This document shows positions 32,256 to 40,122 of a DNA stretch of 64,000 nucleotides, in pieces. The position numbers and the translations under genes are program-made. Under the pieces are notes generated by a model. The model did not search any database and was not told the DNA's origin. It was given only the letters and a program-made list of their open reading frames with translations. Source of the stretch: Collimonas sp. OK412 (GTDB taxonomy: Bacteria; Pseudomonadota; Gammaproteobacteria; Burkholderiales; Burkholderiaceae_D); NCBI RefSeq assembly GCF_900112135.1, contig NZ_FOLC01000007.1:186001-250000 (forward strand), written 5' to 3'. Every line of letters begins with the position of its first letter. The stretch's first letter is position 1.

Positions 32256-34826
32256 TCAAACTTCAGCAATACGCTTGGCGATATGCGCCAGCGCTTCTTC
32301 CACCTGGTCGACCAGGATCAGGCAAAGATCTCCCGGCTCCAGGTGCGACAGCGCAGTATCGATGGCGACGAATTCGCCGTTGATTTCCGCGGTCGATGTG
32401 GTGCGGCGGGCGTTCTGCAAACCTTCGCGCAGCAAGCCCAGCACTTCGCCGTCGGCGCGGCCGCGCTGGCACTGGTCCTGGTACAGGATCACCTGGTCGA
32501 ATGCATCGCCCAGGATTTCGGTCTGGTGGCGGATGTCGATATCGCGCCGGTCGCCGGCGCCGCTGATGACCACCGAACGGCGTTTGGCGGGCATGCTGTC
32601 GATAGCCTTAACCAGCGCCTTGATCGCATCCGGGTTGTGGCCGTAGTCGGCAATCAGGGTCGCGCCGCGATAATCGAATACATTGAAGCGGCCTGGCGCG
32701 GTGGCGGCATCGTTGACGAAGCTGCCGAGGCCGGCGCGGATCACGTCCCAGTCCAGGTCCAAAGCCCAGGCCGCGGCGATCGAAGCCATGGCGTTTTCGA
32801 CCTGGAAGCCGATGGCGCCGTTGCGTGTCAGGGGGATGTCCTGCAGCAGGATCCGATGTTCCTGCTTGCCCTTGGCGGCGACGATGGCGTTGCCGTCCTG
32901 GTACACCACCCGGTGGCCTTGCGCGCGATGGGTGGTCATCAGCGGGTGATGGAAATCGTGGGCGAAAAAGGTCACTGAGCCCGGGCAGGATTTGGCCATG
33001 CTGGCGACCATCGGATCTGCCGCGTTGAGGACCGCATGGCCGCCCGGGGCGACGTTTTCGACGATCACGCGTTTGACCACGCTCAAGTCTTCCACCGTGC
33101 TGATATAGCTCAGGCCGAGATGGTCGCCCATGCCGATATTGGTGACCACGGCAACGTCGCAGCGGTCGAAGCCGAGGCCCTCGCGCAAGATGCCGCCGCG
33201 CGCGGTTTCAAACACGGCCGCATCGACGTCCGGATGCATCAAGACATTGCGCGCGCTGCGCGGGCCGCTGCAATCACCGGTATCGATGCGCTGTTTTTCG
33301 ATATAGACGCCATCGGAATTGGTCATGCCGACGCGCAGTCCCTTGCGGCCCAGCAGGTGGGCGATCAGGCGCACGGTAGTGGTCTTGCCGTTGGTGCCGG
33401 CCACCGCTACCAGCGGGATGCGGCCGTTGTCGCCGCTGGCGAACATGGTCGACATGATGGCGGCGCCGACCGCGCGGCCCTTGCCGTAAGAAGGGCTGAT
33501 GTGCATGCGCAAGCCAGGTGCTGCATTGACTTCGACCACGCCGCCTTCCTGTTCTTCCAGCGGCTGGTGGACGTTGTTGCAGACGACGTCGACGCCGCAG
33601 ATATCGAGCCCGACCATTTGCGCCGCGGCTACCGCGCGCGCCGCCAGTTCAGGATGGACATCTTCGGTGACATCGGTGGCGGTGCCGCCGGTGCTCAGGT
33701 TGGCGTTGTTGCGCAACACCACGCGCACGCCTTGCTGCGGGATCGAATCCGCGGCGTAATTCTGCTTGGACAGCGTCGCCAGGGCAATCGCATCGAAGCG
33801 GATCTTGGTCAGCGTGGTGGCATGGCCGTCGCCGCGCAGCGGGTCGCTGTTGACCTGGTCCACCAGCTGGCGGATGGTGCGCACGCCGTCGCCGATGACT
33901 TGCGGCGGATCGCGGCGGGCAGCGGCGATCAGCTGGTTGCCGACCACCAGCAGGCGGAAGTCATGCCCCGGCAGGTAGCGCTCGACGATCACTTCCGAAC
34001 AGATCTTGGCGGCCACTTCGAACGCCGCCATGACCTGCTCGCGGGCGGTGATGTTGACCGCCACGCCCTTGCCCTGGTTGCCGTCGCGCGGCTTGAGCAC
34101 CACCGGTCCGGCGATTTCCTGGGTCGCGGCCCAGGCTTCTTCCGCGCTGGAGACCACCCGGCCCATCGGCACCGGGACCCCGGCCGCGTTCAGCAGTTTC
34201 TTGGTCAGGTCCTTGTCCTGGGCGATCGATTCCGCGATCGCGCTGGTGTGGTTGGTTTCCGCGGCCTGGATGCGGCGCTGGCGGCTGCCCCAGCCGAACT
34301 GCACCATGCTGCCGCTGGTCAGGCGCCGGAACGGAATCCCGCGCATGACCGCCGCCTGCACGATGGAGCCGGTGCTGGGTCCGAGACGGATGTCTTCATC
34401 CAGTTCATGCAGGCTGGCCAGTGCGCCGGCGAGATCGAAGGGCTTGTCTTCCAGCGCTGCCTGGCACAGTTTCTGCGCCAGCTGGAACGCCATCCTGCCG
34501 ACTTCTTCCTCGGTGTATTCAACGATGACCTGGTAGACGCCGCCTTCCAGGGTCGGCACGGTGCGGCTGAAGGTGACTGGGCAACCGGCTTCCGATTGCA
34601 GGCCGAGCGCCGCTATCTCGAGCGCGTGCGCCATCGACACCACGTCGTTCTTGCTGCCGGCTTCCAGGAAGCCGATTTTTGGAAAGCGTTCACGCAACCT
34701 GGCTTCGAAACCGGCGATGCCTGCAATGGCGCGTTCGGCATCGGTGCAAGACACGATGGCTTCGATAGCGGTATGTCGACTCCACAGATTGGGGCCGCGA
34801 AGTACTCGGATACGTGATACGTCCAT
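32256..34826 (-). CDS. cphA: Cyanophycin synthetase CphA (full-length)
   Basis: About 856 residues from ATG 34826. CphA polymerises L-aspartate and L-arginine into cyanophycin, a nitrogen/carbon reserve. Domains: N-domain (1-160), ATP-grasp G-domain (about 200-460, with GLDICGVDVVCNN and VEVNAAPGLRMH), and Mur-ligase-like M-domain with P-loop GTNGKTTT near 480, FETARGGILREGL, DHLG near 568 and a complete C-terminal lobe (PGRFNVF, ADYGHNPD, GDRRD). The ligase core looks active. The N-domain is aberrant: where canonical CphA has EHVxLELQ, this has EIAALGLQ, losing the HxxxE metal motif. It lies 22 bases beyond the terminator after cphA'. Confidence 0.92.
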   Translation of the reverse strand: MDVSRIRVLRGPNLWSRHTAIEAIVSCTDAERAIAGIAGFEARLRERFPKIGFLEAGSKNDVVSMAHALEIAALGLQSEAGCPVTFSRTVPTLEGGVYQVIVEYTEEEVGRMAFQLAQKLCQAALEDKPFDLAGALASLHELDEDIRLGPSTGSIVQAAVMRGIPFRRLTSGSMVQFGWGSRQRRIQAAETNHTSAIAESIAQDKDLTKKLLNAAGVPVPMGRVVSSAEEAWAATQEIAGPVVLKPRDGNQGKGVAVNITAREQVMAAFEVAAKICSEVIVERYLPGHDFRLLVVGNQLIAAARRDPPQVIGDGVRTIRQLVDQVNSDPLRGDGHATTLTKIRFDAIALATLSKQNYAADSIPQQGVRVVLRNNANLSTGGTATDVTEDVHPELAARAVAAAQMVGLDICGVDVVCNNVHQPLEEQEGGVVEVNAAPGLRMHISPSYGKGRAVGAAIMSTMFASGDNGRIPLVAVAGTNGKTTTVRLIAHLLGRKGLRVGMTNSDGVYIEKQRIDTGDCSGPRSARNVLMHPDVDAAVFETARGGILREGLGFDRCDVAVVTNIGMGDHLGLSYISTVEDLSVVKRVIVENVAPGGHAVLNAADPMVASMAKSCPGSVTFFAHDFHHPLMTTHRAQGHRVVYQDGNAIVAAKGKQEHRILLQDIPLTRNGAIGFQVENAMASIAAAWALDLDWDVIRAGLGSFVNDAATAPGRFNVFDYRGATLIADYGHNPDAIKALVKAIDSMPAKRRSVVISGAGDRRDIDIRHQTEILGDAFDQVILYQDQCQRGRADGEVLGLLREGLQNARRTTSTAEINGEFVAIDTALSHLEPGDLCLILVDQVEEALAHIAKRIAEV

Positions 34827-34849
34827 CAACAGGTTTTCCTATTATTACT

Positions 34850-34886
34850 GATAAAAAAAGCAGGAGGGCAGCCGCCCGTCCTGCTT
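34850..34886 (-). terminator. Intrinsic terminator between cphA' and cphA
   Basis: On the minus strand AAGCAGGA and GGGC pair with their complements across a four-base loop (34886-34858): 12 pairs with one bulged base, followed by seven T residues. It begins seven bases after the cphA' stop and leaves about 22 bases before the cphA start, so cphA depends on read-through or on a promoter inside cphA'. Confidence 0.9.
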
Positions 34887-34893
34887 AGATTTT

Positions 34894-37050
34894 TTAAGCC
34901 ATCTCGAACGTTTCTATCCCTGCACGCATCAGGTCGTGAGAGATGTCCAGCGCCCAGGCGGCGGCAACCGCCGCCAACACGTTTTCAACCTGGAAACTGT
35001 CCTTGCTGCGGGCAATCAGCGGCACGGTGGTGATGTCTGCCAGCAGCATTTCGTTTTTGCCGATCGCCAGCATGATCTGGTCGTTGCGCACGAACACGGC
35101 GCGGCGGTCTTGTTCCAGCTGTTCGGCGATCACCGGCAGGGTAGGGGAGAGGCCAAAAAAGATCACTTCGCCGTCGCACAGCGGCGCCATGCCCGCCACC
35201 AGCGAATCGGCGGCATTCAGCACGGCGACGCCGCTAGGCAGCACGACGTCGACCTGGGTGCGCGTGACCTTGACCATTTCCTCGGCATCGCCGATGTAGT
35301 ACTGCGGCGAGCTGTCGGCAGGATCGATATTGGTGACGACGCCGACCTGGCAACGGTCATAGACCAGGCCTTCCGAGAGGATGGTGTCGTGGCTGTTCTC
35401 GAATACCGCCGCCTGGACCGCGCGGTTGATCAGCACCCGTTGCGCCGACTCCCAATTGGCGCGGTCGCCCTTTTCAACCCGGCGCTGGGCAAAATAAAGA
35501 CCGTCGCCGCAAGCCAGGCCGACATGGTTGCCGCTCAAATGCAGCTGCCAGGCGATCAGGCGCGAGACGGTGGTCTTGCCGTGGGTGCCGGTGACGCCGA
35601 CGATGGGGATGCGGCCATTGTCGGCAGCGGCGAACAGGTGTTCGATGATGGCGCGGCCGACCGGGCGCGGCCTGCCTTCGGCCGGCTTGAGATGCATCAG
35701 CAGGCCGGGGCCGGCGTTGACTTCGACGATCGCCCCGCGCTGCTCTTCCAGCGGACGGGAAATATCCTCGGCCACCAGGTCGACGCCGGCGATATCCAGG
35801 CCCACCACGCGCGCGGCGAGCGAGGCCGCTGCGGCGACGCTGGGATGGACCAGGTCGGTGACGTCGATGGAAACGTTGCCGTTGCGCTGGATCAGCACTT
35901 GCTTGCCTGCAGGCGGGATCGATTCGCCGTTGAAGCCTTGCCGTTCCAGCTCTACCCGCACCACCGGTTCTTCATCCAGCAGCACCAGGCTCAGCGGGCA
36001 CTCTTCGAGTTCGCCGCGGCGCGGGTCGGAATTGATCTGGCTGTCTATCAGCTGGCGGATGGTCGATTTGCCATCGGCGCTGATCGACAGCGGCTCGCCG
36101 CGCGCGGCAGCCGCCAGGCGGCCGCCGACAATCAGCAGCCGGTGTTCGTTGCCGCGGATGAAACGTTCGACGATGACGCTGCTGCCTTCTTCCAGCGCCA
36201 GGGCGTAGGCGGTTTCGATTTCAGCCTGGGTATTGAGGTCGATGAAGACGCCGCGTCCATGGTTCGCATCGGAAGGCTTGACCACCACCGGCAAGCCGAT
36301 ATCTTCAGCGGCTTCCCAGGCTTCGGCGGCGCTTTCCACCAGTTGTCCTTCCGGCACCGGCACGCCGCAAGCCTGCAGCAGGCTCTTGGTCAGGTCCTTG
36401 TCGCTGGAGATGCTTTCGGCGATGGCGCTGGTCTGGTCGGTTTCCGCGGTCCAGATGCGGCGCTGGCGGATACCGTGGCCGAGCTGCACCAGGTTGCCTT
36501 CGGTGAGGCGGAACGAGGGGATGCGCCGTTCTTCCGCGGCTTCCACGATACAGGCCGTGCTCGGCCCCAGACAGCGCGAATCCACCATGCTGCGCAGTTC
36601 GACGATAGTGGCAGGGACGTCGAACGGCTTGTCTTCGATCGCCGCCATGACCAGGTCGCGTGCGGCATGCAGGGCGGCGCGGGTAACCTGCTCGTGGCGC
36701 GCGCGCACCGCAACCTTGTAGACGCCGCGCACTGAAGTGCTGCGCGCCTTGCCGAAACCGCCGGGCATGCCGGCCAGGTTTTGCAGTTCCAGGGTGACGT
36801 GTTCGAGGATGTGGCCGGGCCAGGTGCCGTCTTGCAGGCGTTGGACAAAACCGCCGCGTTCGCCATAGCTGCAGCGGTGCTCGATCAGGGTAGGCAGCCA
36901 GCTGGTCAGGCGCTGGTTGAAGCCGGGCAATGTATTCGACGGGAAATCTTCCAGTTCGCCAATATCGATCCACGCCTCAAGGGTTGACCGGTACGTCCAG
37001 ATGTTTGGTCCGCGTAGCGACATGATGCGGAGAATTTCAATGTTTTTCAT
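34894..37050 (-). CDS. cphA': Short cyanophycin synthetase homologue CphA' (C-terminal ligase lobe absent)
   Basis: 718 residues, first gene of the minus-strand pair. The N-domain is canonical (GGFVQRLQDGTWPGHILEH, then VTLELQNLAG; HxxxE near residue 84) and the ATP-grasp domain is mostly conserved (IVEVNAGPGLLMH). In the M-domain the P-loop GTHGKTT (about 487) is kept, but ETARGGI is replaced by ENSHDTI and DHLG by DSSP (near 579). The chain stops at about the point where the C-terminal ligase lobe starts in CphA. Arginine ligation is therefore doubtful. Betaproteobacteria often carry such a cphA' beside cphA, and cyanobacterial CphA2 is another short form. No frameshift remnant follows the stop. 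Confidence 0.88.
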   Translation of the reverse strand: MKNIEILRIMSLRGPNIWTYRSTLEAWIDIGELEDFPSNTLPGFNQRLTSWLPTLIEHRCSYGERGGFVQRLQDGTWPGHILEHVTLELQNLAGMPGGFGKARSTSVRGVYKVAVRARHEQVTRAALHAARDLVMAAIEDKPFDVPATIVELRSMVDSRCLGPSTACIVEAAEERRIPSFRLTEGNLVQLGHGIRQRRIWTAETDQTSAIAESISSDKDLTKSLLQACGVPVPEGQLVESAAEAWEAAEDIGLPVVVKPSDANHGRGVFIDLNTQAEIETAYALALEEGSSVIVERFIRGNEHRLLIVGGRLAAAARGEPLSISADGKSTIRQLIDSQINSDPRRGELEECPLSLVLLDEEPVVRVELERQGFNGESIPPAGKQVLIQRNGNVSIDVTDLVHPSVAAAASLAARVVGLDIAGVDLVAEDISRPLEEQRGAIVEVNAGPGLLMHLKPAEGRPRPVGRAIIEHLFAAADNGRIPIVGVTGTHGKTTVSRLIAWQLHLSGNHVGLACGDGLYFAQRRVEKGDRANWESAQRVLINRAVQAAVFENSHDTILSEGLVYDRCQVGVVTNIDPADSSPQYYIGDAEEMVKVTRTQVDVVLPSGVAVLNAADSLVAGMAPLCDGEVIFFGLSPTLPVIAEQLEQDRRAVFVRNDQIMLAIGKNEMLLADITTVPLIARSKDSFQVENVLAAVAAAWALDISHDLMRAGIETFEMA

Positions 37051-37342: not shown

Positions 37343-39655
37343 ATGAAAAGCAACCCTTTATCCCCTGTGCCTACTCCCGGTAATTATTTATCCCATATCC
37401 TGCCCGCCGATTTGCGTGCTGAAGTGATAACACTGCTTGCCCCGACTGAAGAAATATTGGCCTCGCTGCAGGTCGATCTTAACGCTTCACTGCATTTTGC
37501 GCGCGGCACGGTATTGCTCACCAATCGCCGCCTGCTGGCCAAGATGGAGCAGGACAGCAGCTGGCGCGAATGGGCTTACCGGCCCGGCCTGACGCTGGGC
37601 CACCACGACCATGCCGGCGTCGGCAGCCTGGAGCTGTGCGACGAGCAGCGGCAGCTGGCTTGCTGGCGCTACACGCTTGGCCTCAACCTGGAAGCGCTGC
37701 GCCTGATCAAGCTCTTCGAGCAGCAGCGCGACGATTACCTGGCCGGGCGTTCCGCCGCGCGCCAGGAGCAGGCGCTTTGCCCGCAATGCCAAGCGCCGCT
37801 GCCGCCGGGCAGCGACGAATGCCTGATCTGCCCGGAAAAAGGGGAAGCACCGTCCTCAACCTGGGCCTTGTTCCGGCTGGCGCGTTTCGCCACGCCGTAC
37901 AAGGGCATGCTGCTGCTCGGTTTTATCCTGATGCTGATCTCGACCGCCGCCACCCTGGTGCCGCCGTACCTGATGGGCCCGCTGATGGACAATGTGCTGA
38001 TTCCTTATCAGAACGGCAAGCCGATCAACCATGACCTGGTCAAGCTCTACCTGTCCGGCCTGCTGGCTTCCGCCCTGGTGGCGTGGAGCCTGGGCTGGGC
38101 CCGCACCTATATCCTGGCCTTGGTCAGCGAGCGCATCGGCGCCAATTTGCGCACTACTACCTATGAACATCTGCTGCGCCTGTCGCAGGAATATTTCGGC
38201 GGCAAGCGCACCGGCGACCTGATGGCGCGCATCGGCTCGGAAAGCGACCGCATCTGCGTGTTCCTGTCCTTGCACCTGCTGGATTTCGCGATCGACGTGC
38301 TGATGATCGTCATGACCGCGGTGATCCTGTTCTCGATCAATCCCTGGCTGGCGCTGGTGACCCTGGTGCCGCTGCCGTTCATTGCCTGGATGATCCACCT
38401 GGTGCGTGACCGGCTGAAGCACGGCTTTGAAAAGATCGACCGCATCTGGGCCGAAGTGACCAATGTCCTGGCCGACACCATCCCGGGGATCCGCGTAGTC
38501 AAGGCGTTTGCCCAGGAAAAGCGCGAAGCCGGGCGTTTCCGCGACGCCAACCAGCACAACCTGCTGGTCAACGACCGCGTCAACAAGATCTGGTCCCTGT
38601 TCTCGCCGACGGTCACCTTGCTGACCGAAGTCGGGCTGCTGGTGGTCTGGGTGTTCGGCATCTGGCAGGTCTCGAAAAACGAAATCACGGTCGGTGTGCT
38701 GGCCTCGTTCCTGGCTTACATCAGCCGCTTCTATACCCGCCTCGATTCGATGAGCCGTATCGTGTCGGTGACGCAAAAAGCCGCGGTCGGCGCCAAGCGC
38801 ATCTTTGAAATCCTGGACCACGTATCGAGCGTGCCGGAACCGGCCAACCCGGTGCACCTGGAGCATGTGAAAGGCGCCATCGAATTGCGCAACATCGGTT
38901 TCCGCTACGGCAACCGGGCGGTCATGCGCGAGGTCAACCTGACCATTGCGCCGGGCGAGATGATCGGCCTGGTGGGCCATAGCGGCTCCGGCAAGAGCAC
39001 GCTGGTCAACCTGATCTGCCGTTTCTACGACGTGTCGGAAGGATCGATACGGATCGACGGCGTCGATATCCGTTCCATGCCGATCTCGGAATACCGCCGC
39101 AATATCGGCCTGGTGCTGCAAGAGCCGTTCCTGTTCTTCGGCACCATTGCGGAGAACATCTGCTACGGCAAGCCGGAAGCCACGCGCGAAGAAATCGTCG
39201 CCGCCGCGCGCGCCGCCCATGCCCATGAATTCATCCTGCGCCTGCCGCAAGGCTACGACTCGCTGGTAGGCGAACGCGGCCAGGCGTTGTCCGGCGGCGA
39301 GCGCCAGCGCATCTCGATTGCGCGCGCCTTGCTGATCGATCCGCGTATCCTGATCATGGACGAGGCTACCTCGTCGGTCGACACCACCACCGAAAAGGAA
39401 ATCCAGAAAGCGCTGGATAACCTGGTGCAGGGCCGCACCACGATTGCTATCGCGCACCGTTTGTCGACCTTGCGCAAGGCCGACCGGCTGGTGGTGCTGG
39501 ACCGCGGCCAGATCGTCGAAGTCGGCAGCCATGACGAACTGATGCTGCGCGAAGGCGCTTATTACCGCCTCTACCAGGCGCAGCTGCGCAATGCGGATAC
39601 CGAGCCGACCCTGGTCGATGAAGACAGCGAAGACAGTGACGAGAGGGCAGCATGA
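37343..39655 (+). CDS. Cyanophycin-locus ABC transporter (fused membrane and ATPase) with zinc ribbon
   Basis: A 770-residue ABC half-transporter of exporter architecture with an unusual N-terminus. Residues about 15-110 resemble a bacterial PH-like domain (ARGTVLLTNRRLLAKM). Next is a zinc ribbon, C146-x2-C149-x10-C160-x2-C163. Six helices span about 185-460. The ATPase follows, with Walker A GHSGSGKST at about 545-553, signature LSGGERQRISIARALL and Walker B LIMDEATSSVD. The same type occurs beside cphA in many betaproteobacteria and is known as cyanophycin metabolism-associated. It overlaps the DUF1854 gene by four bases. The substrate is unknown; cyanophycin dipeptides or a granule-related factor are possibilities. 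Confidence 0.85.
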   Translation: MKSNPLSPVPTPGNYLSHILPADLRAEVITLLAPTEEILASLQVDLNASLHFARGTVLLTNRRLLAKMEQDSSWREWAYRPGLTLGHHDHAGVGSLELCDEQRQLACWRYTLGLNLEALRLIKLFEQQRDDYLAGRSAARQEQALCPQCQAPLPPGSDECLICPEKGEAPSSTWALFRLARFATPYKGMLLLGFILMLISTAATLVPPYLMGPLMDNVLIPYQNGKPINHDLVKLYLSGLLASALVAWSLGWARTYILALVSERIGANLRTTTYEHLLRLSQEYFGGKRTGDLMARIGSESDRICVFLSLHLLDFAIDVLMIVMTAVILFSINPWLALVTLVPLPFIAWMIHLVRDRLKHGFEKIDRIWAEVTNVLADTIPGIRVVKAFAQEKREAGRFRDANQHNLLVNDRVNKIWSLFSPTVTLLTEVGLLVVWVFGIWQVSKNEITVGVLASFLAYISRFYTRLDSMSRIVSVTQKAAVGAKRIFEILDHVSSVPEPANPVHLEHVKGAIELRNIGFRYGNRAVMREVNLTIAPGEMIGLVGHSGSGKSTLVNLICRFYDVSEGSIRIDGVDIRSMPISEYRRNIGLVLQEPFLFFGTIAENICYGKPEATREEIVAAARAAHAHEFILRLPQGYDSLVGERGQALSGGERQRISIARALLIDPRILIMDEATSSVDTTTEKEIQKALDNLVQGRTTIAIAHRLSTLRKADRLVVLDRGQIVEVGSHDELMLREGAYYRLYQAQLRNADTEPTLVDEDSEDSDERAA

Positions 39656-40122
39656 CAAGCCATGATTTCAAACTCAGCCGCAATGCCTTCGGCCGCCTGG
39701 TGTACACCGCGGTCAACGGCGAAGTGCATGAAGGCGTGGTGCCGGTGCGGGCCTTTCCTATCGGCGCGCCGGACGACGGCATTTCGCTGGTGAACGGCGA
39801 CGGTCAGGAACTGGCCTGGATTTCACGCTTGAGCGATTTGCCCGGCGAAACCCGGGCGATGGTTGAAAAAGAATTGGCGAGCCGCGAATTCATGCCGGAA
39901 ATCCGGCGTATCCAGCGGGTTTCCAGTTTCACCGCGCCGAGCACGTGGTATGTGGAAACCAATCGCGGCGATGCTTCTTTCACGCTGAAAGGCGAAGAGG
40001 ACATCCGGCGCATCGTGGCGACCAGCCTGCTGATCGCCGACAGCCATGGCGTGCAGTTCCTGATCCGCGACACCCAGGCGCTGGACAAGGCCAGCCGCAA
40101 GATCCTGGATCGTTTCCTGTAA
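39652..40122 (+). CDS. DUF1854 protein associated with cyanophycin metabolism
   Basis: A 156-residue soluble protein with no signal peptide or membrane segment. Features are FGRLVYTAVNGEVHEGVVPV near residue 14, the conserved AWISRLSDLPGETRAMVEKE near residue 55, and STWYVETNRGDASFTLKGEE near residue 97. The alternating short strands and one C-terminal helix (TQALDKASRKILDRFL) are compatible with a small PH-like fold, but that is a guess. Its ATG overlaps the ABC gene stop (ATGA), so the two products are made together and likely interact. The molecular role is unknown. Confidence 0.82.
   Translation: MTSHDFKLSRNAFGRLVYTAVNGEVHEGVVPVRAFPIGAPDDGISLVNGDGQELAWISRLSDLPGETRAMVEKELASREFMPEIRRIQRVSSFTAPSTWYVETNRGDASFTLKGEEDIRRIVATSLLIADSHGVQFLIRDTQALDKASRKILDRFL

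Follow-up and report, generated by a model that had tools for sequence, protein, structure and literature searches.

The DNA analysed here, called the window below, is a stretch of 64,000 nucleotides from Collimonas sp. OK412 (contig NZ_FOLC01000007.1, positions 186,001 to 250,000). It carries two unequal genes of the cyanophycin synthetase type, cphA' and cphA, which lie on the minus strand in this order and 64 bases apart (Table 1). An earlier note on this DNA had read them as a complementary pair, in which CphA' would act as primer maker and CphA as the main ligase, and this reading is well supported by the comparative sequence data. One of the two sisters probably builds cyanophycin, a nitrogen-storage polymer, and the other probably cuts this polymer into starter pieces.

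The start codon of CphA is TTG, the next ATG being located at position 34826. CphA (985.1 bits) exceeds the equivalog cut-off of TIGR02068 (850 bits) and CphA' (767.7 bits) falls below it; both proteins exceed the threshold for NF010623, the cyanophycin synthetase subfamily (CphA' with 1087.7 against 877). AlphaFold models of the two proteins are confident, with a mean predicted local distance difference test score (pLDDT) of 91.0 for CphA and 93.1 for CphA' (at least 90 at 590 of the 718 residues of CphA'), and both models match CphA1 structures over their length.

Searches were performed for CphA' in 195 genomes of the family and for CphA in 276 genomes of the class, 249 of the phylum and 200 of the order, which is taken to be Burkholderiales. 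The family list yielded 40 of the fetched pair loci, and the wider lists yielded 39 pair loci, the double locus L080 and 20 others; the matches to solo CphA1s were fetched for 8 of 10 cases in the class search, for all in the phylum search, for 4 of 6 in the order search and for 5 of 20 plasmid matches. Genomes for the residue tables were picked for diversity and are thus a non-random sample. Rows of at least 600 amino acids were kept (81 for CphA and 81 for CphA'), and shorter ones, including the CphA' fragment of L092, both CphA pieces of L131 and Mur-ligase-like neighbours, were dropped. The 104 rows of solo CphA1s consist of 24 from whole-protein searches and 80 from motif-pattern searches; as the patterns contained the N motif and the STGG loop, the counts for the latter (77/80) are biased and were kept separate. 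Residues are numbered according to SuCphA1, the reference chain having been checked against published residues, and the aligned end positions of short CphA' proteins in the row-set alignment, which are artefacts, were left unused.

In SuCphA1 the primer-making site of the N domain is the motif Cx19HxxEH, in which C59, H79 and H83 hold the metal and E82 is the general base, with H57, F67, R70 and E87 surrounding the site; the full motif occurs in 83% of CphA1s at 70% redundancy (PMC9262961). The N-domain segment of CphA' reads GHILEHVTLELQ and retains this whole motif, with exact x19 spacing, together with the equivalent of E87, i.e., a fuller motif than the canonical HxxxE that the earlier note had recognized. 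The corresponding segment of CphA reads AHALEIAALGLQ. Here the loss of HxxxE (H83 and E87) described previously is accompanied by the absence of C59, around whose position approximately 10 residues are missing, while H79 and E82 are kept; with C59 and H83 gone, one of the three metal ligands is left. No substitute set of metal ligands was found in the CphA N domain (region of approximately residues 50-71), where any Cys is present in 4 of 80 CphA rows. In L054 (G178:C1), from a genome of the genus that consists of one contig, a frameshift between the N and G domains leaves the CphA frame without its N domain; this frameshift may be real or may be a sequencing error.

The N site (C59, H79, E82 and H83) is intact in 81/81 CphA' and in 0/81 CphA, so that its loss in the one protein co-occurs with its retention in the other, as the earlier note had expected. 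The equivalents of H57, F67, R70 and E87 are each present in 81/81 CphA'. Among the solo CphA1s from whole-protein searches the N motif was found in 20 of 24, the misses being both L080 genes, L130 and L137. A split of this kind is not due to chance; nevertheless, all 81 rows per side originate from one duplicated clade, and the counts therefore testify to long retention and not to independent events of repeated origin.

The G domain is, judged by its assigned residues, divided between CphA and CphA' as well, which the earlier note had missed. The residues assigned to this domain (PMC9427784) include (i) those for the substrate aspartate (R323, N394, S396 and R458), (ii) those for the acyl-phosphate (H267 and R309) and (iii) those for adenosine triphosphate (ATP) and Mg (K220, K261, D431 and E450). 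In the CphA' of the window R323, the STGG loop and R458 are gone, and the others are kept. The aspartate site is intact in 81/81 CphA and 0/81 CphA', with R323, S396 and R458 each absent from every CphA', while the ATP/Mg site is intact in all 81 CphA and in 79 of 81 CphA'. At position 267 the distribution is reversed: His is kept in 78/81 CphA' and in 3/81 CphA, and Gln is found in 78/81 CphA. The previous claim that CphA has every ligase motif thus stands for the M domain and fails for the G domain, in which H267 is replaced by Gln, R269 by Lys and H308 by Phe. Gln267 is also present in four rows of the solo class (L113, both L080 genes and L137) and three paired CphA have His, for which reasons we did not accept Gln267 as the mark of a dead G domain; we think, from this distribution, that the CphA G site works, and Gln267 may not be a defining CphA1 trait.

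The retained ATP-grasp residues of CphA', including H267, bear on a second possible activity, namely that CphA', besides cutting, is a ligase for a nucleophile other than free aspartate (a dipeptide or the end of an oligomer). R458 is likewise lost in 10/10 CphA2s of a comparison set of ten cyanobacterial proteins, and CphA2s use beta-Asp-Arg (PMC10206079). The pockets differ, however, since these CphA2s retain R323 and an NLSAGG loop and have Lys267. Moreover, two CphA' of one family outside the order show that the function of the G domain is dispensable: L111 (G383:C2) lacks H267 and E450, and L112 (G272:C45) has an in-frame loss of about 80 residues around the Gw module, while the N site is complete in both. 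On balance we regard such an activity as unlikely. The decay of the G domain beside an intact N site in L111 and L112 suggests that CphA' is maintained for its N site. In a further CphA' (L083) H267 is replaced by Arg, and K220, K261, D431 and E450 are retained.

In the M domain, the alignment of CphA' to SuCphA1 stops at residue 716, equivalent to SuCphA1 722, i.e., at the boundary of Mcore and Mlid. The lid (residues 724-876 in TeCphA1; its loss lowers activity, PMC9427784) is present in the CphA of the window and absent from its CphA', which confirms the earlier observation of a missing C-terminal ligase lobe and of DSSP in place of DHLG. Residues K499, T500, E558, D585 and H586 are intact in 81/81 CphA and 8/81 CphA', and two M-lid residues are kept in 81/81 and 4/81, respectively. 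The five M residues occur together in precisely those eight CphA' that reach 800 amino acids or more. R561 is absent from all eight, as from every CphA' (0/81, against 81/81 CphA and 104/104 solo rows), and it therefore seems to have been lost before the lid.

Table 1. Coordinates of the cphA'-cphA pair, its sequence motifs and the adjoining genes (positions within the window).
Feature	Position	Strand	Description
cphA'	34894..37050	-	718 aa; primer-site motif of the N domain intact, aspartate pocket missing from the G domain, M core lacking a lid
cphA	32256..34829	-	857 aa; metal site missing from the N domain, aspartate pocket and Gln267 present in the G domain, M domain whole
Spacer	34830..34893	-	64 bases between cphA' and cphA, with terminator-like hairpin and T7
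CphA' residues 60-88, Cx19HxxEH...E	36787..36873	-	C60, H80, E83, H84 and E88, equivalent to SuCphA1 C59, H79, E82, H83 and E87
CphA MAHALEIAALGLQ	34596..34634	-	H79 and E82 retained; H83 to Ile, E87 to Gly; C59 absent upstream
CphA' G-domain P-loop NHGRG	36250..36264	-	equivalent of H267 retained
CphA' RGEP	36091..36102	-	R323 (binds substrate aspartate; PMC9427784) to Gly
CphA' RNGNVSID	35863..35886	-	STGG of aspartate loop (S396-G399) deleted
CphA' GPGLLMH	35692..35712	-	R458 (binds substrate aspartate) to Leu
CphA' DSSP	35305..35316	-	at the DHLG site of the M domain; D585 retained, H586 to Ser
CphA G-domain P-loop NQGKG	34065..34079	-	H267 to Gln252, R269 to Lys
CphA ANLSTGG	33684..33704	-	aspartate-binding loop intact
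CphA DHLG	33114..33125	-	M-domain motif intact
ABC transporter	37343..39655	+	cyanophycin metabolism-associated (NF052233); divergent neighbour
DUF1854 protein	39652..40122	+	cyanophycin metabolism-associated (NF052234); divergently upstream of the pair

The two genes are also tied to each other by their occurrence. In the order-wide search, 76 of the 200 genomes matched at E 1e-80 or better; 69 of these carry a CphA of the pair type (our reading of the search table, later recounted), and a CphA' match was found in all 69. The two genes share a contig in these genomes except in G705 and G743. The remainder comprises six genomes with a distant solo CphA1 only and G726, with a CphA' only, near a contig end. 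Trees were built from the G domain and M core after exclusion of the trait columns. In these, all CphA fall into one group and all CphA' into another (support of 99 and 100, respectively, in a quick tree, and of 97/98 and 100/100 in a careful one), and in both trees they share a clade apart from other CphA1s.

This clade is joined by L113, a gene from another class, which stands unplaced within it in the quick tree and beside CphA' (96/87) in the careful one. L113 has the N, aspartate and M sites together, Gln at position 267 and the same ABC and DUF1854 genes adjoining it; it is the one match in its genome. We do not claim it as a proven single-gene ancestor, since its contig ends inside the gene and its placement differs between the trees, and no second case of this type was found in 48 genomes of its class. 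The simplest history that would fit these sequences is that a three-site enzyme was duplicated and that the two copies then underwent reciprocal loss.

Constraint on the domains follows the same division. Among the 76 loci with both genes (L112, L054, L132 and L083 excluded), the identity of the N strip (SuCphA1 residues 50-105) is 72.7% among CphA' and 56.5% among CphA, that of the M core is 47.8 and 70.1%, and that of the G domain 67.5 and 72.6%, respectively. For 13 members of the genus, the median ratio of nonsynonymous to synonymous substitution rates (dN/dS) of CphA' is 0.043 in the N domain, 0.021 in the N strip, 0.055 in the G domain and 0.074 in the M core; for CphA, where the values come from 12 partial genes, it is 0.112 in the N domain, 0.044 in the N strip and 0.049 in part of the G domain. 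Taken together, identity and dN/dS indicate that CphA' is not decaying, that selection acts on its M core, possibly because of a role in folding or assembly, and that the N domain of CphA is relaxed but not free. The lost M lid and the degraded M residues of most CphA' could suggest a functionless leftover of the duplication. Considering its presence in every pair-type genome, an N site that is lost in none of the 81 rows, the dN/dS of the N strip and the well-folded model, such a leftover is extremely improbable, and we rejected the view of CphA' as a pseudogene on the grounds of co-occurrence, residue conservation and dN/dS.

From the presence, conservation, ancestry and reciprocal losses of the two genes we infer their catalytic activities, an action in trans and any complex between the proteins. 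We consider it fairly probable that they form a subfunctionalised cyanophycin synthetase pair, in which CphA elongates and CphA' mainly supplies an N-domain endo-cyanophycinase in trans. After the duplication, CphA would have kept chain elongation, its G domain adding aspartate and its M domain arginine, and would have lost the N-domain peptidase, so that alone it would be primer-dependent, like TmCphA1. In CphA' the endo-cyanophycinase would have survived, but not the aspartate pocket or, in the majority of members, the M ligase. CphA' would cut the few long chains into primers of about four units in trans, either free or within a mixed oligomer, and this supply would make the system primer-independent. 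Such an arrangement is consistent with the finding that SuCphA1 with dead G and M domains, or its N domain alone, renders TmCphA1 primer-independent, and that an engineered N-G+M+/N+G-M- heterodimer works (PMC9262961).

Several points weigh against this interpretation. Cleavage in cis was somewhat better than in trans in the heterodimer study (PMC9262961), the conserved ATP-grasp residues of CphA' would be needless for a pure primer maker, and all counts derive from a single duplicated clade. The eight full-length CphA' still keep the five M residues, and four of them also retain R731 and H748; the M site of these four is marked as changed only by R561 and a few other residues, and their M domain could be partly working. 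As the G domain of SuCphA1 is inactivated by the mutation H267A, aspartate ligation by the Gln267-bearing CphA is not certain. Finally, according to a review (PMC11362209, citing Adames 2013), wild-type R. eutropha, which has two homologues, showed no cyanophycin, and this counts against a simple view of a pair that always makes polymer.

The divided G domain also fits an obligate mixed oligomer, in which neither protein is active alone and each contributes a site or an interface to a shared complex with three kinds of sites. The M core of CphA' is folded in the model and under selection though its ligase residues are mostly lost, the M core of TeCphA1 touches three G cores (PMC9427784), and the genes are adjacent, with a median gap of 62 nucleotides (79 loci; the outlying gaps of L050 and L054, the latter of which was checked, seem to be artefactual and to stem from start finding and a frameshift). 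Expression of both copies is even in Accumulibacter, whereas in Tetrasphaera the longer copy is expressed above the shorter (PMC10687191). A further point of doubt is W672, whose mutation turns SuCphA1 dimeric (PMC9262961). It is present in 78/104 solo rows and in none of the 81 CphA or 81 CphA', so the known tetramer may not apply and the assembly of the pair may differ from that of SuCphA1. We regard the obligate oligomer as a serious possibility, if a somewhat less probable one than its absence.

Polymer use has to be considered too, as CphA' might mainly mobilise cyanophycin, its N-domain endo-cyanophycinase replacing a missing cyanophycinase. In the genome of the window no match to an S51 cyanophycinase was found (TIGR02069, PF03575) and an IaaA-type peptidase (PF01112) is present, so CphA' may be the only recognised polymer cutter there. 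No TIGR02069 match was found in 43 of 59 genomes of the family (not all of which have the pair), no cyanophycinase had been found in Betaproteobacteria according to the available text of PMC5178258, and an alternative degradation route has already been called for (PMC5178258). On the other hand, the N domain of SuCphA1 is slow and releases chiefly four-unit pieces, not dipeptides (PMC9262961), and TIGR02069 is matched in the other 16 of the 59 genomes, in 14 of these above its cut-off. Mobilisation as the main role is therefore improbable. A combined form, which we hold possible but on the doubtful side, would be an obligately heteromeric two-gene synthetase: CphA would ligate aspartate and arginine, CphA' would cut primers and keep an ATP-grasp activity with a changed nucleophile, neither alone would suffice, and the cutting site of CphA' may in addition make the polymer accessible for use.

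The 64-base spacer contains a hairpin (-20.5 kcal/mol) whose stem is altered but still pairing in 8 of the 13 loci of the genus (L003-L010, including the genome of the window; assessed by eye); that of L009 has no T run. In a wider set, 4 of 64 spacers were over the hairpin threshold, the window being one of these four. The hairpin could lead to less CphA relative to CphA' in this subclade. Within the flanks fetched, whose length bounds both counts, a homologue (more than 40% identical) of the ATP-binding cassette (ABC) transporter was found at 77 of 100 loci, and one of the DUF1854 protein at 44 of 100. Both families already bear the 'cyanophycin metabolism-associated' name at NCBI.

Other arrangements were seen as well. 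At L080 (G016:C1:5337500-5347500) there is another, divergent pair, whose two CphA-like genes are full-length, have damaged N motifs and Gln267 and adjoin a cyanophycinase match. At L116-L121 and L126-L129 a solo cphA1 adjoins an open frame of approximately 560-620 amino acids with Mur-ligase-like M residues, and the neighbouring frame of cphA1 in Ruegeria (L135) is annotated as 'Mur ligase family protein'.

If true, the proposed division of labour would explain the two unequal adjacent cphA genes in the sampled genomes of the order that have a pair-type cphA. It predicts that, unless primer is added, cyanophycin is formed only when both genes are expressed together, a prediction that may be relevant to the negative result for R. 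eutropha. It would also offer CphA' as a candidate cutter for genomes in which the search for a cyanophycinase gave no match.

Adjacent cphA pairs are already known. Neighbouring copies have been reported in Accumulibacter and Tetrasphaera (PMC10687191), and those of Sideroxydans and Gallionella were called 'CphA1, CphA2' (PMC5178258). The 'Group 1' cluster of Accumulibacter and others resembles the pair in combining two cphA genes with one for an ABC transporter and in lacking cphB, but differs in being flanked by insertion sequences, and domain loss is not discussed in the available sections of that paper (PMC10687191). Among the papers listed in searches of the open-access literature, none describes reciprocal loss in cphA pairs in its title or the start of its abstract. 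The short copy may already be described by Krehenbrink (2002), Fuser and Steinbuchel (2007) and Adames (2013).

Cyanobacterial CphA2 (PDB 7TA5, 8FXH) shares with CphA' the lack of the M lid and the loss of R458. In the ten CphA2s compared the N site is absent, and CphA' is their opposite at the N motif, position 267, R323 and the aspartate loop. We therefore rejected CphA' as a CphA2, and the suggestion of the earlier note that it adds dipeptides in the manner of CphA2 found no support; a CphA2-like role is, by these residues, not the default reading. TmCphA1 (PDB 7LGN), which is primer-dependent, is like CphA in having an N domain without a metal site; it lacks all four motif residues, of which the CphA of the window retains two, and the available part of PMC9262961 mentions no partner for it. 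SuCphA1 (PDB 7LG5/7TXV), with its active N domain, has the three sites in one chain, which are here split over two genes. Closest is the engineered N-G+M+/N+G-M- heterodimer of SuCphA1 (PMC9262961), in which, as in the pair, the N site is on another protomer than the G and M sites. The heterodimer is composed of artificial point mutants, whereas the pair is natural and retained across the sampled genomes, and its CphA' has a G domain without the aspartate pocket but with the ATP site. The pair would thus be the natural counterpart of an experiment that, in the literature consulted, was made with engineered mutants.

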